Assembly (NCBI RefSeq): GCF_000166395.1
Contig: NC_014655.1
Span: 186,001 to 250,000, forward strand
Source: Leadbetterella byssophila DSM 17132
GTDB taxonomy: Bacteria; Bacteroidota; Bacteroidia; Cytophagales; Spirosomataceae
DNA: 64,000 nucleotides
Reading direction: 5' to 3'
Shown: piece by piece, positions 2,666 to 23,389 of the stretch
Position numbering within the stretch: the stretch's first letter is position 1
Layout: each line of letters begins with the position of its first letter
Position numbers and translations under genes: made by a program
The notes under the pieces: model-generated
The model's input: the letters and a program-made list of their open reading frames with translations, nothing else
Told to the model about the DNA's origin: nothing
The model's database searches: none

Positions 2666-4669
2666 ATGCAAGGAGAAGACGATTTAAGAGGTTTAGCCAA
2701 GATTATGGCTTTTATGAGGGCTGTAAGCATCCTTTTGATGCTGATGCACTTTTACTGGTTCTGTTACGGGTTCTTTTTAGACCGTGGCTGGACACTGGAG
2801 ATCATCAATAAAATATTGGGAAATTTTGAACGGACGGCCAGCCTGTTCTCCCACACCCTTTACACCAAAATATTTGCTTTGGTTTTGCTGGCGTTAAGCT
2901 GTTTGGGAACCAAAGGGGTAAAAAATGAAAAGATTACCTGGCCCAAGATTTACACAGCTTTAGCTATAGGTTTCGTTCTGTTTTTCCTTAGCTCACCATT
3001 GCTCCAATTGTCAGCGGGGCTTGCAACTTCTCTATACATCCTGACCAGCTCATTAGGATACATTGCCCTGATGATGGCCGGTGTATGGATCACCCGCCTG
3101 CTGCGCACCAATCTCATGGAGGACGTTTTCAATAACGAAAACGAAAGCTTCATGCAGGAAACCAAGTTGATGGAAAACGAATACTCCGTCAACCTGCCTA
3201 CCAAATTTTGGTACAATAAGAAGGAGCATAAAGGCTGGATCAATATTGTAAACCCCTTCAGGGCAACGATTGTATTGGGAACTCCCGGATCAGGTAAATC
3301 TTACGCAATAGTTAACAGCTATATCAAACAGCAGATAGAAAAGGGTTTTTCAATGTATATCTATGATTTCAAGTTCGATGACCTTTCTACCATTGCTTAT
3401 AATCACTTGCTGAAGCATAGAGACAAGTACAAAGTAAAACCGAAATTCTACGTTATCAATTTTGACGACCCACGCAAGAGCCACCGGTGCAATCCTATTA
3501 ACCCCGATTTCATGACTGATATATCCGATGCCTACGAATCGGCTTATACCATCATGCTGAATCTTAACAGGTCGTGGATACAGAAGCAGGGCGATTTCTT
3601 CGTGGAATCCCCAATTATCTTACTGGCTGCTATTATTTGGTTTCTAAAAATCTATGACAACGGAAAATATTGCACGTTTCCACACGCCATTGAATTACTG
3701 AACAAAAAATATTCAGATGTATTTACAATTCTGACTTCTTATCCCGATCTGGAGAACTATCTTTCTCCATTCATGGATGCCTGGCAAGGCGGCGCCCAAG
3801 ACCAATTGCAGGGACAGATTGCATCGGCAAAAATTCCATTGTCAAGAATGATTAGCCCGCAGTTGTATTGGGTAATGACCGGGGATGATTTCACGCTCGA
3901 CATCAACAACCCTAAAGAGCCTAAGATCTTATGCGTGGGTAACAATCCCGACCGCCAAAATATTTACTCTGCTGCATTGGGCTTGTACAATTCAAGGATT
4001 GTAAAACTCATCAACAAAAAGGGACAATTAAAGAGTTCGGTTATTATAGATGAGCTGCCCACGATTTATTTTAGAGGACTGGACAACCTTATCGCAACTG
4101 CCAGAAGTAACAAAGTTGCAGTTTGCTTAGGCTTCCAGGATTACTCACAATTAATCCGGGATTATGGCGACAAGGAAAGTAAAGTAATTCAAAACACGGT
4201 TGGGAATATTTTTAGTGGCCAGGTTGTCGGAGAAACAGCAAAGAACCTGTCGGAACGCTTTGGCAAGGTACTACAGAAACGACAAAGCCTTACCATCAAC
4301 CGGAATGATAAGTCCACCTCAATCTCTACCCAATTGGATAGTCTTATTCCTGCTTCTAAAATTTCTACCCTAACACAAGGCATGTTCGTTGGGGCAGTAT
4401 CGGACAATTTTGATGAACGAATTGAACAAAAAATATTCCATGCTGAAATTGTGGTGGACAATGAAAGAGTTGCTGCTGAAACTAAAGCCTATAAAAAAAT
4501 ACCGGAAATCTTATCGTTTACTGATGAACACGGTACTGATAATATGAAGCAGGAAATAGAAACTAATTACCGGCAGATAAAAAAAGACATCGTACAAGTT
4601 ATCGAAGCGGAGCTTGAACGCATCAAAAATGACCCCGATCTACAACATTTGGTTCAACAGGGTAATTAA
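2666..4669 (+). CDS. mobC: MobC/TraG-like type IV coupling protein
   Basis: A 667-residue VirD4/TraG-family ATPase that should connect the relaxosome to the mating-pore channel at the inner membrane. The N-terminus has the YWFCY motif (residues 30-34) typical of Bacteroidota conjugation proteins. Hydrophobic segments follow near residues 20-40, 65-80, 98-115 and 120-145. The Walker A motif 'GTPGSGKS' lies near residue 205, and the Walker B-like 'SSVIIDELPTIY' is near residues 453-464. The C-terminal half includes 'GFQDYSQL', as in TraG-type motor domains. It is transcribed with mobA/mobB and ends just before a strong terminator. The length is usual for this family. Confidence 0.9.
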   Translation: MQGEDDLRGLAKIMAFMRAVSILLMLMHFYWFCYGFFLDRGWTLEIINKILGNFERTASLFSHTLYTKIFALVLLALSCLGTKGVKNEKITWPKIYTALAIGFVLFFLSSPLLQLSAGLATSLYILTSSLGYIALMMAGVWITRLLRTNLMEDVFNNENESFMQETKLMENEYSVNLPTKFWYNKKEHKGWINIVNPFRATIVLGTPGSGKSYAIVNSYIKQQIEKGFSMYIYDFKFDDLSTIAYNHLLKHRDKYKVKPKFYVINFDDPRKSHRCNPINPDFMTDISDAYESAYTIMLNLNRSWIQKQGDFFVESPIILLAAIIWFLKIYDNGKYCTFPHAIELLNKKYSDVFTILTSYPDLENYLSPFMDAWQGGAQDQLQGQIASAKIPLSRMISPQLYWVMTGDDFTLDINNPKEPKILCVGNNPDRQNIYSAALGLYNSRIVKLINKKGQLKSSVIIDELPTIYFRGLDNLIATARSNKVAVCLGFQDYSQLIRDYGDKESKVIQNTVGNIFSGQVVGETAKNLSERFGKVLQKRQSLTINRNDKSTSISTQLDSLIPASKISTLTQGMFVGAVSDNFDERIEQKIFHAEIVVDNERVAAETKAYKKIPEILSFTDEHGTDNMKQEIETNYRQIKKDIVQVIEAELERIKNDPDLQHLVQQGN

Positions 4670-4697
4670 AAAAAGGGCTTTGAAAAAAGCCCTTTTT
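4670..4697. terminator. Bidirectional rho-independent terminator
   Basis: A perfect 11-bp stem, AAAAAGGGCTT (4670-4680) with AAGCCCTTTTT (4687-4697) and a 6-base loop, lies between the convergent coupling-protein and methylase-helicase genes. A and T tracts on both sides let it work in both directions. Confidence 0.9.
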
Positions 4698-4718
4698 AGT
4701 TCTCACTATCAATACCCA

Positions 4719-7700
4719 CTACAATACACCACGTGGCAAATGAATACCTTTAGTCCGTACAATACTTTCTGAAACCGTCGGGGCTTCTTTTGGTTTTTCA
4801 ATCTGTACAACTGGTTCATCTTTAGGCTCCGGTGTTATGGATAGTTGTATTTTCCGTTCAACGGCAGCCAATTCCGTTTTCAGTTCAATTAGCTTGCTTT
4901 CCTTTGCCCATGTACCATTAACCACCTCCTGAAGCACGGGGAGGTCTTTTTGAAGTTCGGCTATCTTCTTTTGTTCCTGCTCAATATAACCCGGCAGCTT
5001 TTCCAGTGCTTTCAAAAAATTCATTGCTGCCGTTTCAGGATCTTTAGCCATAATGCCGTTGTTGTATGTGTATTTTATGTTACCCTCTCCCTGTACCAAG
5101 AAACGATTTACACGAATGTCCACACCTTCTTTTTCCGACACTTCTGTTTTTACCAATAACTGAAATCCATACAGGCTACCTATTTCCTGATAGTCACCTC
5201 CGGTACGGGCAGTGTCCGCAATCTGGTTAAGTTTGGCTCCTATCTGTTTTACATCTGAGTTTGAGGATAAGCCATCGAGCTGTAATGGATTTGCAATAGT
5301 ACCATCCGAACGCTTTTGTATGCGCCCTTGTAAGTTATCCCAATCAAGATTAAACTTGTCCAGACGGGAACCGGCACTTTCAAGCATTGCGGTAGTGTCT
5401 TCCAGTTTGTATTTGGAACTGAATTTGGAACGGTTGAAAGCCTGCTTTTCGCTTTCCAGTCCTGCAATCTGTTTTTCCAGCTTCGCTTTATCCAAAAGGT
5501 CGGTATTCCCTGAAAGGATTGCCACGTATTCCGAAAAGTTCATGCCTGATTTTTCATCCATGCTTCCCTCATCAATGGTTCGCTTTCCGAGATTATTAGA
5601 TTTTAGCTGGTCTATGAAGAGTTGCTTATTATACAACAGGTTAAACTTGTAGCTATCCAATGATTTTTCTACCGCATAGATGATGATGTCCACTTTGTTG
5701 TCTGCAAAGAACTTCACTATTTCATTTCCTTTTCGGATTGCCCTTCCATCACGTTGGGCAAGATCGCTTGGCCGCCACGGTGTATCCAGGTGATGAACAG
5801 CTACGGCTCTTTTCTGTGCGTTTACACCAGTGCCGAGCATACTCGTAGAGCCGAACAGCACTCGTATTTTTCCCTCGTTCATCCCGTTGATAAGCTCCTT
5901 ACGTTGCTTATCATTTTTGGCTTCCTGTATAAAGCGGACTTCATGAGCCGGAACGCCGTGGTCTTCCACGAGCTTTCGCTTTATTTCGGAGTACACATTC
6001 CATTCACCGGGCTTGTATGTTCCCAAATCAGAGAAAACGAACTGTGTGCCTTTCTGTGCCTTGTATTGGTTGTAATACTTGGCAATATTGGCAGCACAAT
6101 GGGAGGCTTTGTTATCGGGGTGGTCTTCATACCTTCCGCTTACCATTCGCATATCGAGTGACATCTTACGGGCATAATCCGTAGCGATGAGCATCTTTGC
6201 TTTTTCCTCTCGGTCTGTTAGTGGAGGTCTGCCTAAGAGTTCTGCATTTCCTGTTTTGGCAAAATCCATTAGCTTTTTGATAAATACATCCTGATCCGGT
6301 GTGGGAGGTATGTTGTACAATACCTCATTTTTATTAGGACGGTCTATACCTATATCCTTTGCCGTCCGGTAGTCTGTGATTTCTGAGTAGAACTGTGCCA
6401 GTTCCGGCACTTTAATAAAGTATCGGAAACGCTCTTTAGCTACGATGTTGTTAGCCACCGAAAACTCATAATCGGTGGTTTTCCTTGCATAGATGGCTGC
6501 CCAGGCATCAAAAGAGTTGATACCCTGTTTTTCCATTGCCCGTGGGCGCAGGTATTTGAAGAGAAGATATAGCTCCGTTAAAGAATTGCTGATCGTTGTT
6601 CCCGAAAGAAACGTTGCTCCCATATCGGCATTGATACGTTCCTGAATAGTACGGATAGCAAAAAGCAGGTTCATTGCCTTCAGGCTTCCGTCCACATTGC
6701 CTAATCCTGCAACCCGTGTGTGCCTTGTATTGAACATCAGGTTTTTGAACTGGTGGCTTTCGTCCACAAACAAGTGGTCTATCCCCATCATCTTAAAATC
6801 CACGACATCATCCTTGCGGTTCTCAATATCGTGTTGCAGCGTTTTGAGCTTTACTTCGAGGTTTTCTTTCCGCTTGATTACTCCGGCAAGCATACCCCTT
6901 GTAACTTCCTTGCCCTGGGATTGCATGGCATCAAGGTTACGCTCCACGCTGTCCAGTTCTATTTCGAGTATTTCCTTTTGTATTTCGGGCGACTGCGGTA
7001 TCATTCCGAACTGGTCATGCGTGAGGATTACACAGTCCCAATCATTGTTTTTAATATCACCGAAAATCCGTAGCCGTTTTTTGGGAGTGAAGTCTTCCTT
7101 ACCCGGATACAGAATCTTGGCGTGTGGGTAGGCAGTCCGGTAGGCTTCGGCTATTTCGTGAACGTTGCTTTTTAACCCGATAATCATAGGCTTATGGGCT
7201 AAGCCCAACCGCTTCATTTCCTGTGCTGCGGTACACATTACCAATGTTTTTCCTGCACCTACTTCGTGGTCGCAGATAGCACCGTTGTTCAGTTTTATCA
7301 TCCATACGGTGTCCTTTTGGCTGGAATACAGGTCTTGAATGTTCAAGCCTTTTCTGTCCAGTCCGGGAAACTCCTGATGGCTTCCATCATAGTTCGGACG
7401 CACAAAGCAATTAAAGGTATCGTTATACTGGTCGGTCAGCCGCTGCTTAAACTCATCGTTCTGTCCGTGAAGCCAGTCGCTGAAGGCTGTGCGAATTTCA
7501 TCAATCTTGGTATTTGCCATTTGTATGGCTTCCATATCCCGTACCTTGACCTCCTGATCGCCAACCATCACTTTTTTGGTAATATCCGGTGTGGTATTAA
7601 CCAGTGCGTGTTTAAGCAGTGCAATTCCGTCAAACGTCCGGCTTTCGGCTTTGACGGAATACTTATCCCATATATGCACATTCTTCTGATCGCATTTTAC

Positions 7701-10136
7701 AGAAAAGTCATCGGAGCTTTCAGAGTAATGAACCAGTACATCGGTATCGAAAAGGTGCGAAGCAAAACGGGCATAAATGCCTGTAGGTATCCAGCGTTCA
7801 CCCAGGTTGAAATCCAGCTCTTCAAATTCGATGCGCCCCGGTCTGGCTTCTTCCAGGACCGTAAGGCTTTCTTTGGCTTGCACATCATCCGGATTGCTTA
7901 CAATATAGGCTCTGACTTCCTCCGCCTTTTCTACTACGTTACCCGAAATCCAACGTTCGGATATTTCGTATTCCTTTTGCAGTGGATTGTAGAAAATGCG
8001 CCCGTGCAATGCTTCTCTCAAAGCATCGTCAGTCATACCGCTGATTTCGGATATATAGCTCAAATCAACGCTTCCGTATTTGTTGAGCGAAGCCGCTAAC
8101 GCTTCTTCAGGATTGTCGGTTGCGATGGTTACGGTAGAAAAACTTACGGGATGGCTGAAAATATCCGCTTTATGAACCACGCCTCCAATAACACGTTCCA
8201 GATAAGGGATTTCTTTACCGGCACTATCCGTTTTTATTAGCTTGATATTATCAGCGCTATTGAGATTGCCATACCTTTTGACAAAGGCATCGTATAAGCG
8301 GTTAAGGGTTTCCCGTTCTTCTTTGTATTCGGTCTGAAAGGTTGCCTCTTTGTTGTAAAGCCCCTGGTAATTATCACGCACAGCAATGTACGCCTCGGCT
8401 CTTGCTTTTTGTAAAGGTGGTAATTGCAAAGGATGGAAAACAGCCGTACCACCTGATGTATCTACATCTTGCAAATGACCAATCCAACCATTGTCTATCA
8501 CAAGACAATCGTTCCGGTGGAATGATTGCAGTTCACCACCATACGGAGCAGGTTCGGGAATAGTATTCAGGAGGGCAGGTTGAGCAGCCTGGCCATTATC
8601 ATTGATACCCGAAAACAGGTCGCCGATAGCTTCCTGTTTTATGCCGTTCGCTGATGTATTTTGATTGTCAGCCCTATTGGAAACCGGAGGCGTATAAGGT
8701 TGCTGCATCGCACTGAACAGATCGGTTTGGCGACCTATCGCACGGCGGTTTGCTTTAGCGCTTTGCCTTTTGGGTTGCGTCGTTCTTTTGGGTGGAGCAA
8801 GAACCGCTACCGGTTCATCTATATTTTCAAACAGATCGAAAATGCTTAACTGCTTTAATTCCTGTTGACTTTCCTGAATAATTGTTGGTGTAGCTAATGA
8901 CTGTCGTTCCTGATTGATTACAATAGGTTCTACAACCGGCGGTTGCGGTATTATGGGAATTTGTATAACAGATTCATCGTTCCGCTCTCCTTTATATAAA
9001 TTGAAATCCAAATGCTTTCCAAAGTCTTCCGATAGCATCCGTTGCAGGTCTCTTGCAATTCCGGCCACTCCGTCTTTATGCGTGTAGATTAAGGCAGGCT
9101 GCCCATAAGGGTCGGTATCTAATTTGCGGTCGGTATGCACAATCCTTGTGCTATCCTGAAAGAGTGCATTGCCCGGAGTATTATATTCTGTTTGCCTGCT
9201 TTGGCAAAACAGTTCTTCAGCTTCGGTCAAACCTTTTTTTGCCGTATTCTTTTGAAGGATAATCAGGTCGCTGCCAACCTCTGTGCCTGCGTATTCCGTA
9301 AAGAGGTTGTTCGGTAAGCGAACAACTGAAACCAAATTGTTATCCTGCATCAACGCCCTGCGTATCGGTTCATTTTTCGGACTATTAAGAATGCCCTGTG
9401 AAGTGATATACGCCAGTAAGCCACCCTCACGGAGCATATCAGTACCTTTCAGGAAGAAGTAATTATGTATGCTTCGGGTAGCCTGTACTTTGGCTGTTTC
9501 TTTGCTTCGGGAATAAGAAAGGTCAAATACGGATGTGTCACCGAACGGTATGTTACTGGCGACAACATCGTAGCTGTTATGTTCCTTTTCGGAAATTTCC
9601 TCGAAACCGCTTACACGGACATTGCTTTCGGGATACAGTTGTTTTAAAACTTTGCCTGTGAGCAGATCCTTTTCATAAGCGGTAGTGCTTGCTTTCTGGT
9701 TTTCTGAAAAGGATTGTATGAATGAGCCGATACCTGCGGAGGGTTCAAGGAATTTCTGAATGTCCAGGCCGTTTTCACGCAAGGTTGCGGAAACAGCATC
9801 TATGATTTGTGGTGGCGTATAAAAGGCCGTCAGTACGGAGCTTTTCATACTATCCACATACCTGCGGTATTGTTTATCGTTTTCGGAATTTTCTTTGAGT
9901 AGTGTGTGGAGTTCCTGCGTGAGCGGAAACAGGTCGTGTTCTGTCTTTCTCCAGTGATTGATGTCTATTGCATTCTCTATGGGGTTCAGCACGAATTTAA
10001 GACCGCCAAATCCGCTGTATTGCATCATTAGCAGTCTTTCGCCTACGGTGGCTTGTCGTTTCTCCTTTTCCAGTTTAAAAGCAATTCGTAAGGCATCAAT
10101 ATTCAGTTGGAGATGTTGGCGTTTACTGAAGCCCAT
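4719..10136 (-). CDS. Giant N6-adenine methylase fused to SNF2-type helicase
   Basis: An 1805-residue fusion. The N-terminal part has a SAM-binding motif 'EPSAGIGSF' (residues 131-139) and an adenine-methylase motif IV variant 'NIPF' (195-198, where most enzymes have N/D-P-P-Y/F). A proline-rich linker lies near residues 400-560. The second half is a superfamily 2 helicase: Walker A 'GAGKT' near 958, a 'DESH' box near 1124, motif III-like 'SGTT' near 1180, and motif VI 'QRDGRAIR' near 1462. A coiled-coil, Lys/Glu-rich C-terminus follows. Homologues are standard in Bacteroidota ICEs and resemble phage methylase-helicases of the P1 DarB type, so protection of the incoming element from restriction is a reasonable inference. 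It overlaps the DUF1896 gene by 14 bases. Confidence 0.88.
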
Positions 10137-10560
10137 TTTCCTCTATCCAGATTGCGATGGTTCCGGTCAGTTCCGTATAGAGCAGGTCATACGCTGTGCT
10201 ATAGGCGAAGTTATCTGTTAGCACATATCCTTCAAATACAGGCCCGCAAACAGGTAGCATTTTCAAAGCGAATGGTCGTAGTTCTTCATCGGCCATTATG
10301 GTGTCAAACTCATTGCATACGACCTGAAAAACTGTGTCGAACCTGGAGAAGTGTAAGCCTTCAAACAGGATGTAGTTAGCGATCTCATCGCATTGGTCGA
10401 TGGAGTTTCCTGAGCGAAAAGCACCTTCATAGGCATTGGCCGCCCACGATGAACGTTGTTCTATAAACTTGTTGTCGTATGCCTTTTCGGGAAAGCTGGT
10501 ATGTAGTAGTTCCTGTAATCGTAATCTGAAATACGATAAGTCTTTTTGCTGTGTATCCAT
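10123..10560 (-). CDS. DUF1896 family protein
   Basis: A 145-residue acidic soluble protein that fits the DUF1896 family, whose members accompany the methylase-helicase gene in Bacteroidota conjugative elements. Its C-terminus overlaps the methylase-helicase start by 14 bases, suggesting translational coupling and a shared transcript. No catalytic motif, signal peptide or membrane segment is visible. The function is unknown. A role in support of the methylase-helicase is inferred from constant pairing only. Confidence 0.8.
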
Positions 10561-10696
10561 ATAGAATTTTATTTAGAATTTTTGCCTGAACCATAAATTT
10601 AGAGAAGGTGGCAAAAGCATTTACGGAAGTGGAATGGATTGGCGTTAAGTGGCGGTGTTTGGCACGAGTACCTCAAATAGAGGAAGATTTAATTTG

Positions 10697-10704
10697 TATT
10701 TTTG
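10697..10704 (+). promoter_or_regulatory. -7 box (TATTTTTG) ahead of the cargo pair
   Basis: TATTTTTG matches the Bacteroidota -7 consensus TAnnTTTG. No TTG is found at the usual 19-20 base distance upstream. Transcription would start near 10711, which favours the ATG at 10762 over the GTG at 10717 as start of the next gene. Confidence 0.45.
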
Positions 10705-10761
10705 AACTGAGAATCTGTGTATATATCAGAGCAATGCTTAAAACCGAACAACATAACGATC

Positions 10762-12045
10762 ATGTTTGAAATTAGTCATAGAACAGAAGTAGTAAAATGT
10801 CCGAACCCTTCGTGTACAAGAAATATCCAATTGTCAATTGGTAAAGTACCGGGCGGTGTTAACGATAGTGGAGGGTGGATATTGCAGTGTGATAATTGCA
10901 GTACAAAGTTTCCTTATAAGGTAAAGAATCCGGACGATTATTCTTCTGTGAAATCAGGAGCAACGATTTTAGATTCATGGGACAATGATGTTCCGGAGTC
11001 AAAAATGATGGCGTTAAAAAAACATGACTTAGATAGTTTCCCTGAAGATTTTAGTTTCGACAACTTACTATTTGTTCAAACGGGAGAACCTGAAAAACCT
11101 ACTTTTAGCGATATTGAAGAAAATATCTTTTTCTGTCCAGGATGCAAAACACACCTTGAACCAATCTTGTATGCTCAACTTTCTGATAAGCTACCCTCGA
11201 TAAACAAGTCTATAAATTCATACTTAAACTATTACCTCAAAGGAAGAGCTGGAAACCCGGACAGTATCATTGTTGTAGTAGATTATAAATGCGCTTGCGG
11301 ATTTAACACGAAAGGAGTTCTATATAAGGACTTTAAAGAAAGGGAATTGCCTATAGAGGAAGAGCATGAACTAATATTGATAGATGTGATAGGTGCAGAT
11401 TTGGAGTTCACAATAGATGGCGTTTACGATAGGGATGATTGCCTGTCAATTCTTCAGAAGCTATTAATAAGATGGCAGGTTTACTACAATAAAGTTTTCT
11501 TAGCAGTTCCATTTATTGGTTTTGACTTTAAGAATAGCGAAGCACAACGTGTTGAGCTTTGGAATTGGATACTAAAAAACACAATTCCGCATAAAACAAC
11601 TTTGCTAACGAGAAAAGCGACCCTTACATCTTTCCTTGAAGGTTCGGCTAATACTGGTATGGACATTAATGTTCTTAAAGATTACGGACTTTTAAATCCA
11701 ACTGTAGATGAACTAACTGATAAGAAGGCTTTGTTCAAACGTGATTTTCATGCAAAATTCTATGCGGGTTTTGATAGAAAAACCGCTGAGGTATTAGTAG
11801 GTTCCTTTAATATCCACGAGGGAACCTATGTTGAGAACATTCACTTTAAGTCGTATGATTTTGGTGACTTTTTCAAAAAGTATATTCTCAAAATGAATAT
11901 TATTTTCGATCCGAGAATTATAGACGAGGAAGGTGAATTTCTATTGATTAACGAACATGAGGATGGAAAAGAATTTATTGCGAAAGTCGAAAAATATACA
12001 ACTTCGAGGCGTGAAAAGATTTATGAATTGATTACTCCAAAGTGA
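10762..12045 (+). CDS. Zinc-ribbon protein with C-terminal PLD-like nuclease domain
   Basis: A 427-residue protein (442 if the GTG at 10717 is used; the ATG is preferred because a -7 box lies just upstream). The N-terminal half carries cysteine pairs that look like two zinc ribbons: CPNPSC with CDNC, and CPGC with CAC. The C-terminal part has a PLD-like signature: His330 and Lys332 in 'HAKFY', then 'GSFN' at 347-350 and 'EGTYVENIHF'. Only one HKD-like half is seen, so it may act as a dimer, as single-motif PLD nucleases do. The gene interrupts the ICE core and is followed 44 bases later by another unknown gene. DNA binding and cleavage are inferred; a defence role is only a hypothesis. Confidence 0.6.
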   Translation: MFEISHRTEVVKCPNPSCTRNIQLSIGKVPGGVNDSGGWILQCDNCSTKFPYKVKNPDDYSSVKSGATILDSWDNDVPESKMMALKKHDLDSFPEDFSFDNLLFVQTGEPEKPTFSDIEENIFFCPGCKTHLEPILYAQLSDKLPSINKSINSYLNYYLKGRAGNPDSIIVVVDYKCACGFNTKGVLYKDFKERELPIEEEHELILIDVIGADLEFTIDGVYDRDDCLSILQKLLIRWQVYYNKVFLAVPFIGFDFKNSEAQRVELWNWILKNTIPHKTTLLTRKATLTSFLEGSANTGMDINVLKDYGLLNPTVDELTDKKALFKRDFHAKFYAGFDRKTAEVLVGSFNIHEGTYVENIHFKSYDFGDFFKKYILKMNIIFDPRIIDEEGEFLLINEHEDGKEFIAKVEKYTTSRREKIYELITPK

Positions 12046-12089
12046 ATTCAGAAGACAATAAGAACAACTAACAAATAAATTGAGAAAAT

Positions 12090-13427
12090 ATGTACGGAAT
12101 AAACCATAAAATAAATGATCCCGGACTTTATCTACTTAGTGATATTGTCGAGGAACAGTTGAATGTGTATGTAAAGGCATTGGCTGATACTCCGGCTGAG
12201 GATAAAGAAAGAATTGTTCAACTGGAACATGCCATTTCGATATACCAGGGCGAACTGGACAAATTCAAACAGGAAATTGAGGATCAGAAAAAGGAACGGT
12301 TTCAATTCTCTGTTGAAGAGATTTATGCCATGTATGGTCAATACGAACGGAAATTTATCAGTATTGAGTTTCACAAATACAGTGAATCAGCGCAGAAATA
12401 CGGTCGTAATATTTCGGGCATTATATTGTATGGAAAGGCAGAACGTGAAGCGTTGGAGCAAGTCATTCAATCAGGAAATGTACCCCGAACAAATGGCCTT
12501 GTAAAATTTGAGTCCACAGATGAGTATTTATCAAAAGAACAGCAAGAACAACTAAAAAATGAGGGATTCGTTAGCGGTGATATTTATGAAGTTTTAGCCA
12601 CGAATCTTCCTGCCCCAAAAGCCTTTGGACAAGTCGGCAAGAAAGAAATACCAAACACAATTGAAATAAAAATGGATCCTACAGGATTTGATGTTAACCG
12701 ATCAAATCATTGGCTGTTGGGACAAAAGATTAAAAGTGGTTATCCCCTAACTGATGATGAATGGGCTAAGTTTTGTGGTTTATCATTTTATTTGGAACCT
12801 GAATCTGTAAACTTCGACGTTATACAGAATAAAGGGTTTTCGGAAGACGGAAAGAAAACCTCTTTGTCACGTTTTTTTGAATTGGAAGCTAAATTATACG
12901 CCAAAGATATTTCTGCGGAAGAAATGCAGGAGTTCAATGAATTTTTGAAGGAGCGTAAAGCAGTGCGAATTGAAGCTATCGTTAAAGAAATCAAGCGTTC
13001 TACCAATAAGACTTTAGACAAGTTCAAAGAAGAATACCCGGAAATTTACAAGGCTCTTGAAATTTCCAGGATTGAGTTTGACAATGAAACTTTGGCTTAT
13101 CATAACGTTGTTAAGCCTATCTATTGGGATTACGAAGGGTTCCTTCATATCTATCTGCGTCATTGTGATGAATTAGCCATAGAAGGCCACTTTGAGAATA
13201 AAACGAAGTTTCAGTATTCTTATAAGGACATAAGGCGTATTCTAAAAATCGCAATTGAGAACCTCTTACCACAAATAAACGACAGGCTATCGCAAGGAAA
13301 GGATTTCAGAATTTACGGCGACAAATCGCTGTACTTTAACGGCAATCACTATTCCTTGCATGTTTTGGAAAATGGCAGGATTGCAGCTTTTCATCCATTG
13401 GAAAATCCCCAAGACGAGGCTAAGTAA
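12090..13427 (+). CDS. Unknown 445-residue protein with possible BECR-type nuclease C-terminus
   Basis: I do not recognise the full protein. Residues 35-75 form a predicted coiled coil (QLEHAISIYQ to EDQKKERF). The middle is charged and helical. The last 100 residues contain 'HIYLRHCDELAIEGHF', a helix with 'YSYKDIRRIL', then strands with 'YGDKSLYFNG'. This arrangement of conserved His/Arg followed by a helix and short strands resembles Barnase-EndoU-ColicinE5/D-RelE (BECR) nuclease domains of phage and toxin proteins. That reading is tentative. The gene is 44 bases after the PLD-like gene on the same strand and probably shares its promoter, so the two likely work together. It converges on the ORF6N-PLD gene with only 6 bases between stops. 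Confidence 0.5.
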   Translation: MYGINHKINDPGLYLLSDIVEEQLNVYVKALADTPAEDKERIVQLEHAISIYQGELDKFKQEIEDQKKERFQFSVEEIYAMYGQYERKFISIEFHKYSESAQKYGRNISGIILYGKAEREALEQVIQSGNVPRTNGLVKFESTDEYLSKEQQEQLKNEGFVSGDIYEVLATNLPAPKAFGQVGKKEIPNTIEIKMDPTGFDVNRSNHWLLGQKIKSGYPLTDDEWAKFCGLSFYLEPESVNFDVIQNKGFSEDGKKTSLSRFFELEAKLYAKDISAEEMQEFNEFLKERKAVRIEAIVKEIKRSTNKTLDKFKEEYPEIYKALEISRIEFDNETLAYHNVVKPIYWDYEGFLHIYLRHCDELAIEGHFENKTKFQYSYKDIRRILKIAIENLLPQINDRLSQGKDFRIYGDKSLYFNGNHYSLHVLENGRIAAFHPLENPQDEAK

Positions 13428-13433
13428 ACTAAT

Positions 13434-14315
13434 TTATAAACCGTTCAAAAATTGTAACATCTTAGCGACCTCAATATCCATTCTTGAAAAAGCAAACCAC
13501 TTTTTGCCCAAATCTTTGAGTGATGCCCCGATATGGTACAGCTCGGTTCCGTCAATGATAAGAAAGCGATCGTGTGCCTGGGCGAATGTGTGTATATCGA
13601 CAGATGGGTATTGGCTATTGTAGCGTTGCAGATCAAGTTGTAATTGGTTACTGATGTTTTTGGTATAAATCGTGGCAGTCACCGACTGCCCACGTTTCCC
13701 AAGCAATGTGAGTACCGTATCGTCAACGTAATTGTCAATGAGTATAATTGAACGTCCGGCATTTCTTATGATGTCGGCAACGAACGTATAAGCATCAAAA
13801 ATCTGCCCATCGTAAAAAACACCTTTTTCGCTGTGAATTTTGTCGCTTTCCAGTGCCTTAAATATTTCTTCAAATTTCTGGTCGGCTTCCAGTTGTTTAA
13901 GCTCTATTTTGTCCAGACGGCTAAACAGCGAGGCATTGCTGATAAGGATTCTTCGCATCTCTACAAAGGCTTCCATAATTTCAACGCTAACCTTAATGGC
14001 AATTTCAGACCGGAGAACGGCTGAAGCCATTGCGACCCCCGATTCTGAAAAAACCATTGGCAAATAACGTCTTCCACCGTGGTTTAAACTTGAGGTGCCA
14101 AATTGGAACCTCAAGTTTTCGACTTCCTCTTCGGTCAATTGAAAACAGAATGATTCGGGAAACCTTTCAATATTTCTTTTTACAGCACGGTTAAGGTTCT
14201 TTGTTTCCACCTGATATAAAGAGGCCAGGTCACTATCCAGCATCACCTGTTTGCCACGTATGCTGTATATAAGTTTCCTGATTTCCTCGTGGCTAATGAT
14301 AGATTTATTATCCAT
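13434..14315 (-). CDS. ORF6N-domain protein with C-terminal PLD-like domain
   Basis: A 293-residue two-domain protein. Residues 8-95 form an ORF6N/KilA-N-like DNA-binding domain ('IRGKQVMLDSDLASLYQVETKNLNRAVKRN' region, with 'FPESFCFQLT' following). A coiled stretch follows. Residues 175-293 are PLD-like: 'HDRFLIID' with H248, R250 and D255, then 'HIGAS' and 'GKKWFAF'. Arg replaces the usual HKD lysine, a change common in this ORF6N-linked group. Its ATG overlaps the topB stop (TAATG), so it is translated with topB. The protein is frequent in Bacteroidota mobile elements; the target is unknown. Confidence 0.8.
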   Translation of the reverse strand: MDNKSIISHEEIRKLIYSIRGKQVMLDSDLASLYQVETKNLNRAVKRNIERFPESFCFQLTEEEVENLRFQFGTSSLNHGGRRYLPMVFSESGVAMASAVLRSEIAIKVSVEIMEAFVEMRRILISNASLFSRLDKIELKQLEADQKFEEIFKALESDKIHSEKGVFYDGQIFDAYTFVADIIRNAGRSIILIDNYVDDTVLTLLGKRGQSVTATIYTKNISNQLQLDLQRYNSQYPSVDIHTFAQAHDRFLIIDGTELYHIGASLKDLGKKWFAFSRMDIEVAKMLQFLNGL

Positions 14316-16399
14316 TATTTTTTGTGGCTTTTATTTTTCTCAAATTCAAACGAGCTTTCTGCTTTTTCATTCAGTACGATATAGGCATCGAACTTTTTAC
14401 CGGCCTTGCTTTTCATCCCTTTAATGAGTGCGGTTATCCGCTTGGTGATGAGGCTTTCTATATCGGCTATACTGAGTTGCACCTCACAAACATTGCGGAA
14501 CTGTACCCAATTGCAAGCCTCATCAGGGCATTTTACAATCTTATCCCTGATAATTAATTGATGGCTTTTACATTTCGGGCAAGTGAGCTTGGGAAGGTTA
14601 GTTTGGGCAATGGAAGTTTGTAGCAGTTCCTGGGTAATGGTAGTGGCATAAGTTTCAATGTCCATCTGAAAAGTCCCTGCATTGCTTTCACCTGTTTCAA
14701 TCTTTTGCAAAGCAAGTTCCCATTCGGCGGTCATTGCAACATCTGCGATTTTCTTATCTTTTACCAGCTTATATACCTGCAATCCTTTTTCCGTAGGAAC
14801 CAAAGATTTCTTTTCTCTTTGGATATAGTTACGGGTAAACAAGGTTTCAATTATTGCAGCTCTTGTAGCAGGAGTGCCTATACCAATGTTTTGTAATGCC
14901 TTTCGTTCATCTTCATTCTCGATTTCCTTTCCGGCGGTTTCCATAGCCGATAAAAGACCGGCTTCAGTATAGAGTACAGGCGGCTTTGTCTTTTTTTCCA
15001 GAACAGAGGCTTCCTTTATTTTGAGTTCATCGCCTTTTTTAAGTTCGGGGAGATCCTGCACGGGTTCTATATCATCATCGGAGAAGCTGCCTTTAATAGA
15101 ACGCCAGCCTGGTTCCAATATCTTAACCCCTTTCGCAGTAAAATCGTAATGAAGTGCCAGTAAACTTACATCCGTTACTTCTTTAATGCAGGCTTGTGAT
15201 AGGGCTTCCAGTAACCTAAAGGCAATCATGTCATAAACTGAATTTTCCTTTGCGGATAATGCGGATGGTATTTTATCCGTAATGAGCAAGCCATGATGGT
15301 CGGTAACCCGCAGGTCATTGACAATACGTTTATTGAACCGTCCCCATTTCATTTTGGTTACGGCTTGCTTGCAGCTTTCCCTATCTTGTAAGGCTCTCAC
15401 AAGATTGGGGATCTCTGCCCACATATCTTCGGGTATGTACTTGCTTCCGGTTCGGGGATACGTGATAAACTTTTTCTCATACAGGCTTTGAGCAATATTC
15501 AGGGTTTCTTCGGCTGAAAGGTTCAGCTTCTTGTTCGCTTCTTTTTGCAATCCTGTGAGGTCAAACAGTGAAGGGGGTTGCTCCGTAGTGCTTTTACTTT
15601 CCACTGATGTAACGGTAACGCTTGTAGCTCTTTCAATAGATTTCAACGTATCTTCTGCCAGCTTCTGATCGTCCCATTTGTTTTTAGAAAGGCTGTTAAA
15701 ATCAATAAACTCTTTGTTATGGAGCAATTGTATCTGCCAATACTTCTTTACTTTGTAGTCTTTATTTTCCAGATAACGCCTGCATATCAAAGCCAGCGTA
15801 GGTGTTTGCACTCTTCCGAGTGAATATATCCCGTTACCGGCGGCTATGCTTAGTGCCTGGGTAGCGTTGATGCCCACAATCCAGTCAGCACGGCTTCTTC
15901 CTTGCGCCGCCTGATACAACCCGTTAAACTCATTTCCGGATTTAAGATTATCAAGGCCCTGCTTGATTGCTTTTTCTGTAAGTGAGCTGATCCAAAGCCG
16001 TTCAAAAGGTTTCTTGCATTTCAGGTATTCATAAATGTAGCGGAATATCAATTCGCCCTCACGCCCCGCATCTGTAGCCACGATAATGCTATCTGAACGG
16101 TTAAATACCTGTTCAATTACTTTCAGTTGCTTTAGCGCCCCCGGATCTGCGGTGTAGCCCTTGTCCTTTTTTACTTTACGAACAGTAAGCAAAAAGGGAT
16201 TTGGAAGTATCGGTAAAGATGCTTTATCAAATCCCGTAATACCATAATCTTCAGGCATGCCTAATCCAACCAGATGCCCGAATGCCCAGGTAACAAAATA
16301 GCCATTGCCTGTCAGGTAACCATCCTTTTTTTCGGAAGCACCCAACAAGCTGGCTATTTCCCTTGCTACGCTTGGCTTTTCTGCAATCACTACTTTCAT
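14315..16399 (-). CDS. topB: Type IA DNA topoisomerase (TopB-like)
   Basis: A 694-residue topoisomerase III homologue that passes single strands through a transient break. The Toprim domain starts with 'MKVVIAEKPSVA' and contains D110 and 'GREGEL' (112-117). The active-site tyrosine is Y314 in 'FITYPRTGSKYI'. A C-terminal zinc-finger-like segment has CPKC followed by CPDEAC. Topoisomerase genes of this kind are a fixed part of CTnDOT-like elements, probably for processing DNA at excision or transfer. It lies 19 bases after the DUF3945 gene and overlaps the ORF6N-PLD gene by one base, so all three form an operon. Confidence 0.93.
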   Translation of the reverse strand: MKVVIAEKPSVAREIASLLGASEKKDGYLTGNGYFVTWAFGHLVGLGMPEDYGITGFDKASLPILPNPFLLTVRKVKKDKGYTADPGALKQLKVIEQVFNRSDSIIVATDAGREGELIFRYIYEYLKCKKPFERLWISSLTEKAIKQGLDNLKSGNEFNGLYQAAQGRSRADWIVGINATQALSIAAGNGIYSLGRVQTPTLALICRRYLENKDYKVKKYWQIQLLHNKEFIDFNSLSKNKWDDQKLAEDTLKSIERATSVTVTSVESKSTTEQPPSLFDLTGLQKEANKKLNLSAEETLNIAQSLYEKKFITYPRTGSKYIPEDMWAEIPNLVRALQDRESCKQAVTKMKWGRFNKRIVNDLRVTDHHGLLITDKIPSALSAKENSVYDMIAFRLLEALSQACIKEVTDVSLLALHYDFTAKGVKILEPGWRSIKGSFSDDDIEPVQDLPELKKGDELKIKEASVLEKKTKPPVLYTEAGLLSAMETAGKEIENEDERKALQNIGIGTPATRAAIIETLFTRNYIQREKKSLVPTEKGLQVYKLVKDKKIADVAMTAEWELALQKIETGESNAGTFQMDIETYATTITQELLQTSIAQTNLPKLTCPKCKSHQLIIRDKIVKCPDEACNWVQFRNVCEVQLSIADIESLITKRITALIKGMKSKAGKKFDAYIVLNEKAESSFEFEKNKSHKK

Positions 16400-19990: not shown

Positions 19991-20923
19991 ATGGCAAATG
20001 GTAACATAAATGCTCGAACGTTGCATGAGCTGTATCAGCAGCTTGGCCTTTCTACCGATTCCCTGCAAAAAGAATCGGGCTTTACCATACATTACCTCGA
20101 AGACACCTTTAAAAATTTGCCATTCCGTTCGGAACCATTTCGCCCGAACTATTTCAGCTTCCTTTTTATCAAAAGTGCCTTTGGACATTACACAATCGAC
20201 GACCAGCGGTTTGAAGTGACCTCAAACACAGTTTACTTTACCAATCCAGGGAACTATAGGATATTTGAATGGGAACAATTGGAACATACCTGCCTGATCA
20301 CCTTTGGAGAAGGTTTTTTGAAAGAATATGTACACGATGATGTATATCGTGATTTTTCATTTTTGCTGTCTGAAGTTGTTTCACCCCGTGTTTTGACACA
20401 GCATCAATTTGATCAGGTGGAAGAGTTATGCACCCAGATTCATAAAGAGTATAAAGGCGACGCACTTTACAAGAATAAAATTATCGGCGCGCTTGTTATT
20501 GCTTTGCTATTAAAGATCAAAGAATATTTCTTTCAGGATTACAATCCTATTTATGAAGGGAACCGAAGCTCTCAAATTGTAAAAAATTTCAAACTGAATC
20601 TCGAACGTCACTTCCGGGATTTGATCAGCGGAAAAATAAACACTCAATTAAGGGTTCAGGATTATGCGGATTTGCAGTCGCTACACGTTAACTATCTGTC
20701 GAGCGTTATCAGCAATAAAACGGGAAAACCCATTAGCTCCTGGATAGCCGATAAAACCATCACTGAGGCTAAGGTAATGCTCCAAGACGAGGCGCTTAGC
20801 ATTAAAGAAGTTGCCTTTCGTTTAGGTTTCCTGGAAACACCCCACTTCAGCAATTACTTCAAAAAACACACATCCATCAGCCCCGCTGACTATAGGAAAC
20901 AGTATTTCAATAGCCTTTCTTAG
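19991..20923 (+). CDS. AraC-family transcriptional regulator
   Basis: A 310-residue one-component regulator. Residues 40-150 form a cupin-like sensing domain ('RPNYFSFLFIKSAFGHYTIDDQRF' region). Residues 210-305 hold the AraC double helix-turn-helix with 'ISSWIADKTITEAKVMLQDEALSIKEVAFRLGF' and 'HFSNYFKKHTSISPADYRKQY'. It is the first gene of the redox island and points towards the SDR-DUF1097-SDR genes, 96 bases away, which are its likely targets. The inducer is unknown. Confidence 0.88.
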   Translation: MANGNINARTLHELYQQLGLSTDSLQKESGFTIHYLEDTFKNLPFRSEPFRPNYFSFLFIKSAFGHYTIDDQRFEVTSNTVYFTNPGNYRIFEWEQLEHTCLITFGEGFLKEYVHDDVYRDFSFLLSEVVSPRVLTQHQFDQVEELCTQIHKEYKGDALYKNKIIGALVIALLLKIKEYFFQDYNPIYEGNRSSQIVKNFKLNLERHFRDLISGKINTQLRVQDYADLQSLHVNYLSSVISNKTGKPISSWIADKTITEAKVMLQDEALSIKEVAFRLGFLETPHFSNYFKKHTSISPADYRKQYFNSLS

Positions 20924-21019
20924 ATATTTACAACACCCTCTATGATCTTTGTACGTTAGCAGGGACATGAATGTACCAACTTTGTCTTATCAAATTAACA
21001 ATGATAAAAACAAAGTATT

Positions 21020-21760
21020 ATGAGTACATTAAACAACAAAGTGATCCTTGTGACCGGAGCGTCAAGAGGTATCGGTGCTGAAGTAGCACAAAGGCTGGCT
21101 ACCGCCGGCGCAAAAGTAATCGTAAACTATGCTGGTGGAAAAGATGCCGTCGATCAAGTAGTTTCTTCTATTAAGGAGCAAGGAGGCGATGCTATTGCCT
21201 TACAAGCCGATGTAAGCAATGCCGATGCGGTAAAGCAGCTATTCGACAACGCCATCAATCATTACGGAAGAATTGATGTATTGGTCAACAATGCGGGTAT
21301 TATGATCACCAAACTGATCAAAGACACTACTGACGAAGACTTTTCACGTCAGTTCGACATCAATGTAAAAGGTGTCTTCAATACGCTTCGTGAAGCGTCA
21401 ACACGTTTGGCAGATAACGGTTCAATTATCAATTTTTCAACTTCGGTAAACCGCCTAATGTTACCTACTTATGGCACATACGTAGCTACCAAGTCAGCCG
21501 TAGAGCAACTAACACGTGTATTTGCAAAAGAGGTAGGAAGCAGGGGCATCAATGTCAATTCTGTTTCTCCCGGTCCTACCAATACCGAATTGTTTACGAA
21601 TGGCAAATCACAGGAAGTCATCGACCGATTAGCTTCTTTCTCCGCTTTTAATCGTATCGGCGAACCACAGGATATTGCTAAGGTCATTGTTTTTCTGGCC
21701 AGCGATGAAGCCAAGTGGGTTTCCGCACAGAACATAGGCGTAAATGGTGCTATGGCCTAA
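21020..21760 (+). CDS. Short-chain dehydrogenase/reductase (FabG-like)
   Basis: A 246-residue classical SDR. The cofactor motif 'TGASRGIG' is at residues 12-19, 'NNAG' follows near 90, and the catalytic pair appears as 'YVATK' near residue 153. Arg after the glycine motif suggests NADP(H) use. The length is normal. It sits 96 bases downstream of the AraC gene and starts an apparent operon with the DUF1097 gene and a second SDR. The substrate cannot be told from sequence; reduction of a small carbonyl compound is likely. Confidence 0.9.
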   Translation: MSTLNNKVILVTGASRGIGAEVAQRLATAGAKVIVNYAGGKDAVDQVVSSIKEQGGDAIALQADVSNADAVKQLFDNAINHYGRIDVLVNNAGIMITKLIKDTTDEDFSRQFDINVKGVFNTLREASTRLADNGSIINFSTSVNRLMLPTYGTYVATKSAVEQLTRVFAKEVGSRGINVNSVSPGPTNTELFTNGKSQEVIDRLASFSAFNRIGEPQDIAKVIVFLASDEAKWVSAQNIGVNGAMA

Positions 21761-21794
21761 AAACACTAATAAATAAAATTTAAAAAAATATATC

Positions 21795-22268
21795 ATGAAA
21801 ACTTTACCGATTGCAATAGCTTTTGGCCTGTTTGGGGCAATTGCAGTAACCGTATCCTTCTCTCAACAGTGGCCTACATGGGTAATGTTTGTAGCTTGGG
21901 TTAGCTTCTACCTCTTTGGCAAGACGTGGCAAAGTTCGCTTTGGGTGTTTCTGCAAATCGTATTGGGTATGTGTATGGCTGTATTGATACAGCTAACCGC
22001 TGGATTGTTAGGACAATTGATTGGAGCGTTCGGCTTTGCTGCCTCCGTGTTTCTTTATATTGGATCACTGGCTTATATCGCAAGAACAAGAAAATTAAAC
22101 AATATACCTGCTTGGTTCCTAGGGCTTATCATCCTTTTCGGAGTTCATCCTCCATTGGAGCCGTTGCCAATATTGCAAATCCTTATTCCAATTATTGCAG
22201 GATTTGTATTTGCATGGCTAAACAACCTGGTTGTTGAAAAGATCCATGCTCGCCAATCACAGCAATAA
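21795..22268 (+). CDS. DUF1097 family membrane protein
   Basis: A 157-residue inner-membrane protein with about five hydrophobic segments, near residues 5-23, 28-43, 48-70, 72-92 and 105-145. The sequence ('WPTWVMFVAWVSFYLFG', 'IIAGFVFAW') fits DUF1097, the family of E. coli YcdZ. The function is unknown. It lies 34 bases after one SDR gene and 33 before another, so it is probably co-transcribed with them. It may be a small transporter or membrane helper for the same stress response, but this is inferred. Confidence 0.8.
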   Translation: MKTLPIAIAFGLFGAIAVTVSFSQQWPTWVMFVAWVSFYLFGKTWQSSLWVFLQIVLGMCMAVLIQLTAGLLGQLIGAFGFAASVFLYIGSLAYIARTRKLNNIPAWFLGLIILFGVHPPLEPLPILQILIPIIAGFVFAWLNNLVVEKIHARQSQQ

Positions 22269-22301
22269 TAAATCCACTAAAAAGTTTAAAATTCAAAAAC
22301 A

Positions 22302-23054
22302 ATGAACTCGTTAAAAAACAAAGTAGCCATTATTACCGGCTCAGGAAGAGGCTTGGGAAAAGCCATCGCAGAACGTTATGCCGCTTTAGGTGCAGACGTT
22401 GTACTAAACTACTCTAGGGATAAAGCTTCGGCAGATGAAGTAGAAAGCAATATCAAAGCTATGGGAGCTAAGGTAATTTCAGTACAGGCCGATGTAAGCA
22501 AGGTAGACGATATCAAGCGTCTGTTTGAAGAAGCTAAGAAAGCATTCGGCAAAATAGATATCGTTGTTGCAAATGCAGGTATTGAAATGGTTGAAACACC
22601 CGTTACCGAATTTACGGAAGAGCAATTTGACAGGTTATTTTCCATCAATACCAAAGGCGCTTATTTTACAATGCAGCAAGCTGCACTGAATGTGGAAGAT
22701 AATGGCCGGATCATTTATGTAGCTTCAAGTACCACTGTTTTTCCGGTACCGGGCATGGCTGTCTATGGGGGTAGCAAAACAACTCCCAGATATCTGGTCA
22801 ATGTACTATCCCAAGAGATCGCGCACCGTGGCGTTACGGTCAATACTATTGTTCCTTTTGCTGTGGATCATTCGGGAATTTTTGCCGAAGAAGGAAGTTA
22901 TCCGGAATTGAGAAAATCTTTGATTGATAGCTGTCCGATGGGAAGATTGGCAGAAGTGGAAGATGTGGCCAACATTGCTGAATTCTTCGCCAGTGATCTG
23001 TCTTCTTTTGTAAACGGACAACATTTAGTTGTAAATGGCGGTGCCAATCAATAA
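22302..23054 (+). CDS. Short-chain dehydrogenase/reductase
   Basis: A 250-residue SDR related to the one at 21020. The motif 'TGSGRGLG' (residues 13-20), 'NAG' near 91 and 'YGGSK' (catalytic Tyr and Lys near 156-160) are all present. 'GQHLVVNGG' is the typical C-terminal end. It is the third gene of the operon downstream of the AraC regulator. NADP(H) use is suggested by the Arg after the glycine motif. The substrate is unknown. Confidence 0.9.
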   Translation: MNSLKNKVAIITGSGRGLGKAIAERYAALGADVVLNYSRDKASADEVESNIKAMGAKVISVQADVSKVDDIKRLFEEAKKAFGKIDIVVANAGIEMVETPVTEFTEEQFDRLFSINTKGAYFTMQQAALNVEDNGRIIYVASSTTVFPVPGMAVYGGSKTTPRYLVNVLSQEIAHRGVTVNTIVPFAVDHSGIFAEEGSYPELRKSLIDSCPMGRLAEVEDVANIAEFFASDLSSFVNGQHLVVNGGANQ

Positions 23055-23075
23055 TTACTACCAGTGACTATATTC

Positions 23076-23266
23076 ATGAAAATATTACCGATCCTGCTCC
23101 TGTGCTCGTTACAAGCATGTGGACAGATCGGTAATTATCAATATAAAACAATTGTTATGGACACTTCCATAGTGACACGTGGGGTGATTTTAAAACGTAT
23201 CTTAAATTTCACCTCGATGCCGCAGGCAAGTTTGACAAATTGGAAATTGGTCAGACAAGTTATTAA
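23076..23266 (+). pseudogene. Remnant of an NTF2/SnoaL-like lipoprotein gene (internal deletion and frameshift)
   Basis: The 5' part encodes a lipoprotein signal ('MKILPILLLCSLQAC') and a short mature start. From 23159 a different frame reads 'GHFHSDTWGDFKTYLKFHL' and ends 'KLEIGQTSY' with a stop at 23264-23266. That end closely matches the C-terminus of the intact gene at 31925-32347 ('GKFHSDKWGDFKTYFRFHI', 'ERLDVGQADY'). The middle (roughly 80-90 residues) is missing, and the two parts are in different frames, so the gene is broken. It is the last relic downstream of the SDR operon. Confidence 0.7.
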
Positions 23267-23300
23267 TATTTAAATATTTGCTGCTATGTAAAAAAATGAA

Positions 23301-23343
23301 TGGTATTTTGAACAAAGTAAAGTTGGCATTCTGAACAAACTAA
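23301..23343. promoter_or_regulatory. Tandem AraC-type operator upstream of the 23390 gene
   Basis: Two 20-bp direct repeats match at 17 of 20 positions: TGGTATTTTGAACAAAGTAA (23301-23320) and TGGCATTCTGAACAAACTAA (23324-23343). The 23-bp period is about two helical turns, the usual layout of AraC-family operators. A -7 box follows. The AraC product encoded at 24488 is the nearest candidate binder. Confidence 0.6.
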
Positions 23344-23360
23344 CCCATATTTATCTATGG

Positions 23361-23368
23361 TAAATTTG
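23361..23368 (+). promoter_or_regulatory. -7 box (TAAATTTG) for the 23390 gene
   Basis: TAAATTTG matches TAnnTTTG exactly and lies 21 bases before the ATG. No good TTG -33 box is at the usual spacing, which fits an activator-dependent promoter served by the tandem repeat just upstream. Confidence 0.55.
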
Positions 23369-23389
23369 CTTTCAATAATATGATATATA

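Follow-up and report, generated by a model that had tools for sequence, protein, structure and literature searches.

A 64,000-nucleotide stretch of the Leadbetterella byssophila DSM 17132 genome (NC_014655.1, positions 186,001 to 250,000; hereafter the window, numbered from its first letter) contains the core of an integrative and conjugative element (ICE), within which two + strand genes, here called gene 1 and gene 2, interrupt a backbone read from the - strand. We favor, with moderate confidence, the explanation that these are two independent single-gene modules held in a cargo slot of the ICE, gene 1 being a restriction-like nuclease and gene 2 a separate protein with a likely active site in its C-terminal part. 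The initial annotation of the locus had described the two genes as 44 bases apart inside the ICE core, between DUF1896 and the ORF6N/topB genes, and had suggested that they form a joint system. The described layout agrees with ours in coordinates and strands, and in relatives the site has the same backbone genes on either side. The parts of the locus are the following:

10123 to 10560, - strand: DUF1896 gene (Pfam E 3.4e-60), left anchor of the cargo slot
10665 to 12071, + strand: stretch with gene 1 that is missing from a Pedobacter ICE copy (L033), where 74 bases are found (blastn)
10762 to 12045, + strand: gene 1, 427 amino acids (aa), stop codon ending at 12045; zinc-ribbon/phospholipase D (PLD) protein and candidate nuclease, with codon changes indicating purifying selection
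12090 to 13427, + strand: gene 2, 445 aa from an ATG at 12090, after a 44-base spacer; orphan family, predicted protein of unproven function, with codon changes indicating purifying selection
13434 to 14315, - strand: ORF6N gene, right anchor of the cargo slot; matches PADLOC candidate PDC-S05
14315 to 16399, - strand: topB, ICE backbone

The evidence for independence comes from the distribution of the two families. A Chryseobacterium ICE copy (L032) carries both genes, with 96% identity for gene 1 and 93% for gene 2, and the Pedobacter copy L033 has gene 2 at 91% identity and no gene 1, the 74 bases there replacing 1,407. We searched the loci of each family with the profile of the other. Of 17 loci searched with the gene-2 profile, 15 holding a full gene-1 member and two holding other PLD proteins, one was positive; of 18 gene-2 loci (17 distinct) searched with the gene-1 profile, one was positive as well. 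In both searches the positive locus was L032, and the two genes were thus seen together only in this ICE. As a control, we ran each profile against its own set of loci; it recovered its family throughout, with low scores for the two other PLD loci. Several gene-2 loci offer little sequence on one side (807 bases upstream in L035, the locus end close behind the gene in L038, and a start at the contig end in L027), and absence of the partner is weak evidence in those cases. Two pairs of loci, L016 and L041 as well as L026 and L045, were judged by length and score to be the same contigs. The joint system suggested by the initial annotation is not supported by this comparison: homologues were not found together outside two ICE copies and the third copy has gene 2 alone, a pattern close to the one that the annotation itself had named as speaking against its proposal, namely homologues that never occur next to each other.

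Judged by their differences from close relatives, which are mostly synonymous, both are real genes under selection. Compared with L032, gene 1 differs at 13, 6, and 30 first, second, and third codon positions (31 synonymous and 15 non-synonymous codon changes) and gene 2 at 16, 13, and 80 (74 synonymous, 30 non-synonymous); compared with L033, gene 2 differs at 30, 16, and 147 (136 synonymous, 40 non-synonymous), third positions thus predominating throughout. The G+C content is 35.5% for gene 1 and 37.7% for gene 2, against 41.3–44.9% for five neighboring backbone genes and 40.8% for the window; at third codon positions it is 31.5% and 36.3%, against 42.6–47.9% for four of the neighboring backbone genes. 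The lower values of the two genes fit the expectation for cargo. Neither gene received a family name from Pfam (curated cut-offs) or NCBIfam, the best PHROGs matches had E values of 0.27 (gene 1) and 0.11 (gene 2), and phage records gave no match for either. Membership in mad3 was rejected, the matches being weak and partial (2 of 13 members, best E 0.0012).

The site between DUF1896 and ORF6N/topB is a variable cargo slot and holds a known restriction type in one other copy. A search with DUF1896 found it in 7 of 222 same-family genomes and 8 of 287 genomes of the phylum, the own genome being included in each. Our survey of the slot consists of nine other ICE copies; L032 and L033, which came from the gene-2 search, are not counted among them, and five of the six other same-family genomes with a DUF1896 match (24–28% identity) were left out. 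The slot lacks cargo in five of the nine copies (L053, L057, L060, L061, and L062; ORF6N was not seen in L057 and L062). In L055 (5640–8546), it holds two genes that run against the backbone strand, one encoding GmrSD (GmrSD_N E 5.6e-30) and the other a HEPN_Swt1-like protein whose E value of 4.7e-6 falls just short of the cut-off; in L058, it holds a methyltransferase. Neither gene 1 nor gene 2 had a tblastn match at E ≤ 1e-5 in the nine slot stretches.

For gene 1, we aligned 12 members, the window protein included, of which ten are distant and 24–27% identical to the window protein. Their conserved residues form two Cys4 zinc-ribbon-like sites and one HxK...GSxN site:

10798 to 10899, + strand: first Cys4 zinc-ribbon-like site of gene 1 (C13, C18, C43, C46); C13, C43, and C46 invariant in 12 members, C18 in six-member alignments
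11134 to 11298, + strand: second Cys4 zinc-ribbon-like site of gene 1 (C125, C128, C177, C179); C125, C177, and C179 invariant, C128 conserved in at least 90% of the 12 sequences
11749 to 11811, + strand: PLD catalytic motif of gene 1, H330-x-K332 to G347-S348-x-N350, invariant in 12 sequences

The string FHAK.Y and the residues E343 and E358 are invariant in the same members. The Cys pairs, H330/K332, and GSFN at 347–350 are all at the places named in the initial annotation, and its assignment of a zinc ribbon and a single PLD signature is supported by the invariant motifs and by profile links over the motif region. Via these links, the gene-1 profile finds the L028 protein at positions 295–387, the motif region, with E 2.4e-9 (5.2e-11 with a larger profile), and that protein matches PDB chain 2c1l, a "restriction endonuclease" that we take to be BfiI, at E 2.5e-4. 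The L029 protein is found with E 2.9e-4, and RE_NgoFVII passes its cut-off there (E 2.0e-5). Several zinc-ribbon families match gene-1 members weakly. Some candidates were rejected: the G257 and G287 matches (L023/L028 and L025/L029) are other PLD proteins and not members of the family, and the G407 match covers only 52 profile positions and contains a stop.

Relatives of gene 1 are spread over different kinds of mobile elements. A search of 72,556 plasmid records gave 29 that carry one at less than 30% identity, and 27 of these plasmids are predicted conjugative; the plasmid contexts described below come from eight opened records, one of which (Ensifer L064) carries no annotation. The family spans Bacteroidota, Enterobacterales, and Rhizobiaceae at approximately 25% identity and is present in 2 of 222 same-family genomes, the own genome counted. 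In viral contigs, two alignment queries gave one and four loci (one contig shared) and the single query P0001 none. Among 5,426 E. coli genomes, the L026 gene was found in none and the L012 gene, by DNA similarity, in five, two of these at coverage of at least 80%.

The surroundings of several relatives recall those of defense genes. In the prophage contig L026, the relative is flanked by a portal gene (phrog_68, E 6.5e-122) on one side and by a replication gene (phrog_91, E 4.1e-190) on the other. This interval is that from gpQ to gpA, described in the accessible text of PMC9122126 as an anti-phage hotspot of P2-like phages, which places the relative inside a published hotspot. In three related prophage contigs (L046–L048), the relative begins one base past the integrase gene, the integrase being assigned in L047 (phrog_1, E 5e-77). 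In E. coli CAVP776, the chromosomal island that contains it also has SIR2, RES, sce7725/sce7726, and a type I R gene that is incomplete. In the two Klebsiella plasmids opened, it lies near AbiJ_NTD4, and in one of them also near SIR2 and a HerA-like ATPase. On the Rhizobium plasmid L014, it adjoins a pair of an AAA_15 ATPase and a UvrD-like helicase (4587–7680), which is presumably Gabija-like. In the window, the genes adjoining gene 1 are not methyltransferases, with the backbone gene at 4719–10136 lying outside the family search and the neighbors of relatives being known from annotations only. The defense framing of the initial annotation is supported for gene 1 and not for gene 2, and solely through the locations of gene-1 relatives.

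Gene 2 belongs to a rare family of Bacteroidota. Among same-family genomes, 5 of 222 carry a member, and in a sample of the phylum 2 of 296 do, both counts including the own genome; a collection of 84,980 species gave 13 loci, and plasmid records, phage records, and viral contigs gave no match. In an alignment of 18 members, the window protein included, H353, H358, F374, and G429 are present in all, R357 and Y421 in 17, and E361 and K371 in 16. The C-terminal motif is thus HxxxxH, with R preceding the second His in 17 of the 18, and the segments HIYLRHCDE (353–361), YSYKDIRRIL, and YGDKSLYF are where the initial annotation had placed them. An AlphaFold2 model built from 13 sequences (predicted local distance difference test score, pLDDT, 79.5; predicted template modeling score 0.52) consists of a helical hairpin (13–69), an alpha/beta part (75–170), a poorly predicted segment (172–199), a helical middle, and a C-terminal domain. 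The two long N-terminal helices, 13–33 and 39–69, agree with the coiled coil noted earlier. Two regions stand out:

12126 to 12296, + strand: N-terminal helical hairpin of gene 2 (residues 13–69), predicted by the model; missing from short members of ~375 aa
13065 to 13412, + strand: C-terminal domain of gene 2 (~residues 326–441; H353, R357, H358, E361, K371), from alignment and model; own short open reading frame (ORF) in L044

The leading candidate for gene 2 is a Barnase-EndoU-ColicinE5-RelE (BECR)-type RNase that would act as a toxin or in abortive infection and be regulated through its N-terminal part. We regard this assignment, which is compatible with independent modules, as possible and somewhat short of probable. 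The C-terminal domain of the model has helices at 348–358, 378–391, and 393–401, followed by strands at 406–408, 415–416 (a bridge of two residues), 419–425, and 430–436, and both H353 and H358 lie on the first helix. According to the parts of PMC5512222 available, the BECR core consists of an N-terminal helix and then four or five strands, with a His in the helix and a Ser/Thr in strand 4 that is common but not universal. The order of helices and strands and the His on the helix agree with this core, and 7 of the 18 members have Ser/Thr at position 433. On the other hand, the window protein and six others have Ala there and four have Q, D, or K. The model has no Foldseek match at E ≤ 0.001 in PDB or BFVD, Pfam gave no BECR family at E ≤ 10 for the five members searched, and hhalign against one PBECR2 protein returned 0.9%. 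For the BECR fold proposed in the initial annotation, the predicted secondary structure fits, and no match to a known fold or family was found. Other matches were set aside: those to a thermonuclease and a sigma factor in PDB have E values of 0.13 or worse, and those of the model in a viral fold library are to short uncharacterised phage proteins over ~50–66 columns, with probability near 1 but E ≥ 0.27 and the aligned part unspecified.

The surroundings of gene-2 relatives are mixed, and two of them fit a BECR-type effector. In L016 (7229–9324), the relative directly precedes prophage terminase genes, and in L034 (4136–6297), a full-length relative lies 65 bases past an AbiGi gene. Elsewhere, a relative lies 41 bases ahead of a PDDEXK_4 gene (L018) or shares its locus with a type ISP methyltransferase (L038). 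In L019 (8520–10227), an ORF with a DpnII-MboI domain is followed by a relative that lacks the N-terminal half, has a stop in the matched frame, and is probably decayed. No defense gene was noticed by eye around the relatives in L037, L042, and L043. In L044 (5911–6498), the C-terminal domain forms an ORF of its own, 195 aa long, that overlaps by 4 bases an ORF lacking a Pfam match at E 0.1.

Put together, the motifs and family links suggest how two separate modules could work. The gene-1 protein would form a homodimer with a single shared HxK/GSxN catalytic site, as BfiI does, its zinc ribbons would bind nucleic acid, and it would cut the DNA of phages or competing elements with no metal ion and through a covalent histidine intermediate; the dimerization, the DNA substrate, the choice of target, and the defense effect are extrapolated from the family and the location. 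In gene 2, any catalysis would take place at a C-terminal active site comprising H353, R357, H358, E361, and K371, perhaps that of an RNase-type toxin restrained by the N-terminal part of the same protein. A more ambitious version, which we put forward tentatively, would make gene 1 a representative of a previously undescribed family of single-gene zinc-ribbon/PLD immune nucleases, independent of metal and common to ICEs, conjugative plasmids, and P2-like prophages of both Bacteroidota and Proteobacteria, gene 2 the founder of a second, unrelated single-gene immune or toxin family with a new HxxxRH site, and the slot a defense hotspot of Bacteroidota ICEs on a par with those of P2/P4.

Several observations weigh against reading the genes as independent modules with a restriction-like nuclease, and they bear on different parts of it. 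In the slot survey, L056 and L059 have other genes of unassigned kind after DUF1896, and no topB turned up in the stretch retrieved for them. Some gene-1 relatives have no recognised defense neighbor: one lies within a transfer operon, one near repA and a toxin-antitoxin pair, and one near par genes, and on the Bacteroidota chromosome L020, no recognised defense gene was seen by eye beside the relative. The transfer operon, the positions next to repA in more than one relative, the ICE itself, and the predominance of predicted conjugative plasmids would suit a gene that serves the mobile element, in exclusion of related elements, DNA entry, or maintenance, instead of acting against phages. Transfer roles are nevertheless ill-suited to the prophages and to the chromosomal SIR2/restriction island in which other relatives reside, and we consider this alternative rather unlikely.

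A further point concerns transcription. Upstream of gene 1, the window has a candidate promoter word matching TAnnTTTG, the consensus of the Bacteroidota -7 element:

10697 to 10704, + strand: TATTTTTG, a match to the TAnnTTTG consensus; probable promoter of gene 1, perhaps of gene 2

The same word, TATTTTTG, is found ahead of gene 1 in L032 and ahead of gene 2 in L033. Across the + strand of the whole window, such words occur at ~0.5 per kb. At 12001–12090, the last 90 bases upstream of gene 2, there is no promoter word, which makes the closely spaced pair operon-like, and gene 2 of the window may thus be read from the promoter of gene 1. This arrangement on one strand and the retention of both genes in L032 would be expected if they formed one co-transcribed system, as effector and sensor or regulator or as two nucleases. 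Such a system is improbable given that the slot of L033 contains gene 2 but no gene 1 and that the partner profile is absent in 14 other gene-1 loci and 17 other gene-2 loci, some of them short on one side.

The nuclease assignment of gene 1 has its own difficulties. The 12 members do not share the canonical Asp of the HKD motif (D338 in the window protein), Pfam PLD families match members weakly (RE_NgoFVII in 4 of 12, best E 0.005), and the L028 protein lacks a RE_NgoFVII match. The 12-member profile found no PLD protein in PDB (its best match being a beta-lactamase, E 0.35), nor did the window protein as query. The structure prediction asked for in the initial annotation left the PLD fold unconfirmed, giving a weak model (pLDDT 58.8) with no Foldseek match at E ≤ 0.001. 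Among PLD nucleases generally, the Asp between HxK and GSxN is a variable position and does not define all of them. That gene 1 merely carries a PLD-like motif, as a degraded or lipid-acting PLD protein for example, would accommodate the unconfirmed fold and the variable Asp and is nonetheless very unlikely, as HxK, GSxN, and E358 are invariant in 12 members and the zinc ribbons, like the links to PLD restriction enzymes, suggest action on nucleic acid.

Of the known systems, the PLD-type restriction enzymes BfiI and NgoFVII are among the closest to gene 1. They share with it one HxK...GSxN site per chain and the profile links over the motif region; they differ in having a C-terminal B3-like DNA-binding domain, whereas gene 1 has two zinc-ribbon-like sites ahead of the PLD part, no recognised methyltransferase at the window locus, and no conserved HKD Asp. 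BfiI is described in the available text of PMC4081073 as a homodimer whose single catalytic site lies at the interface, metal-independent and acting through a covalent histidine intermediate. The PLD part of gene 1 also resembles ZacB (PADLOC PDLC03829), matching weakly in 9 of 12 members (best E 2.9e-6). We take ZacB to belong to the system named Azaca. Gene 1 was rejected as ZacB, only 73 of 586 profile positions being covered in the window protein, and Azaca was rejected at the window locus, as the three neighbors tested, gene 2, DUF1896, and ORF6N, match neither ZacA nor ZacC in PADLOC.

Gene 2 resembles PBECR/BECR RNases, as far as the accessible parts of PMC5512222 describe them, in the order of helices and strands and in the His on the first helix; unlike them, it has no sequence or fold match and has A433 in place of Ser/Thr. 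Its likeness to AbiGi (PF10899) consists of a weak match of the L019 fragment (E 0.0092) and of the AbiGi gene preceding the L034 relative. The window protein itself has no match, and membership in AbiGi was rejected because the partial match concerns one of five members and is under the curated cut-off. The slot as a whole is comparable to the P2/P4 hotspots as presented in the accessible sections of PMC9122126: both have changing cargo between two core genes, a known restriction type included, and one gene-1 relative is located in the P2 gpQ–gpA interval itself. It differs in that the element is a Bacteroidota ICE, the anchors are DUF1896 and ORF6N/topB, and recognised defense cargo is present in one of nine other copies.

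PLD nucleases are already known in restriction and defense. For the zinc-ribbon PLD architecture of gene 1, our searches of Pfam, NCBIfam, PHROGs, and PADLOC 2023 gave no family above the cut-off, and a literature search, including the accessible text of PMC9519451 and PMC9122126 but not subscription papers and supplements, gave no description of such a family. If the proposed reading is true, gene 1 would be a compact restriction-like immune enzyme spread over very different mobile elements, raising the question of how a zinc-ribbon PLD enzyme tells foreign from own DNA with no recognised methyltransferase partner. The slot offers a fixed address in Bacteroidota ICEs where investigators can look for and gather further cargo, defense genes included, much as was done with the P2/P4 hotspots in E. 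coli.

Two further observations concern the surroundings of the pair. The ORF6N backbone gene at 13434–14315, which is represented by two ORFs in L032 (7345–8225), matches PADLOC candidate PDC-S05 with E 1.4e-133 and, weakly, the PLD proteins NsnC and DrmC, and is thus a phage-defense candidate within the backbone itself. At 19991–24364, the window has + strand ORFs that by eye resemble an AraC-type regulator, two short-chain dehydrogenases, and an alcohol dehydrogenase and are perhaps further cargo.

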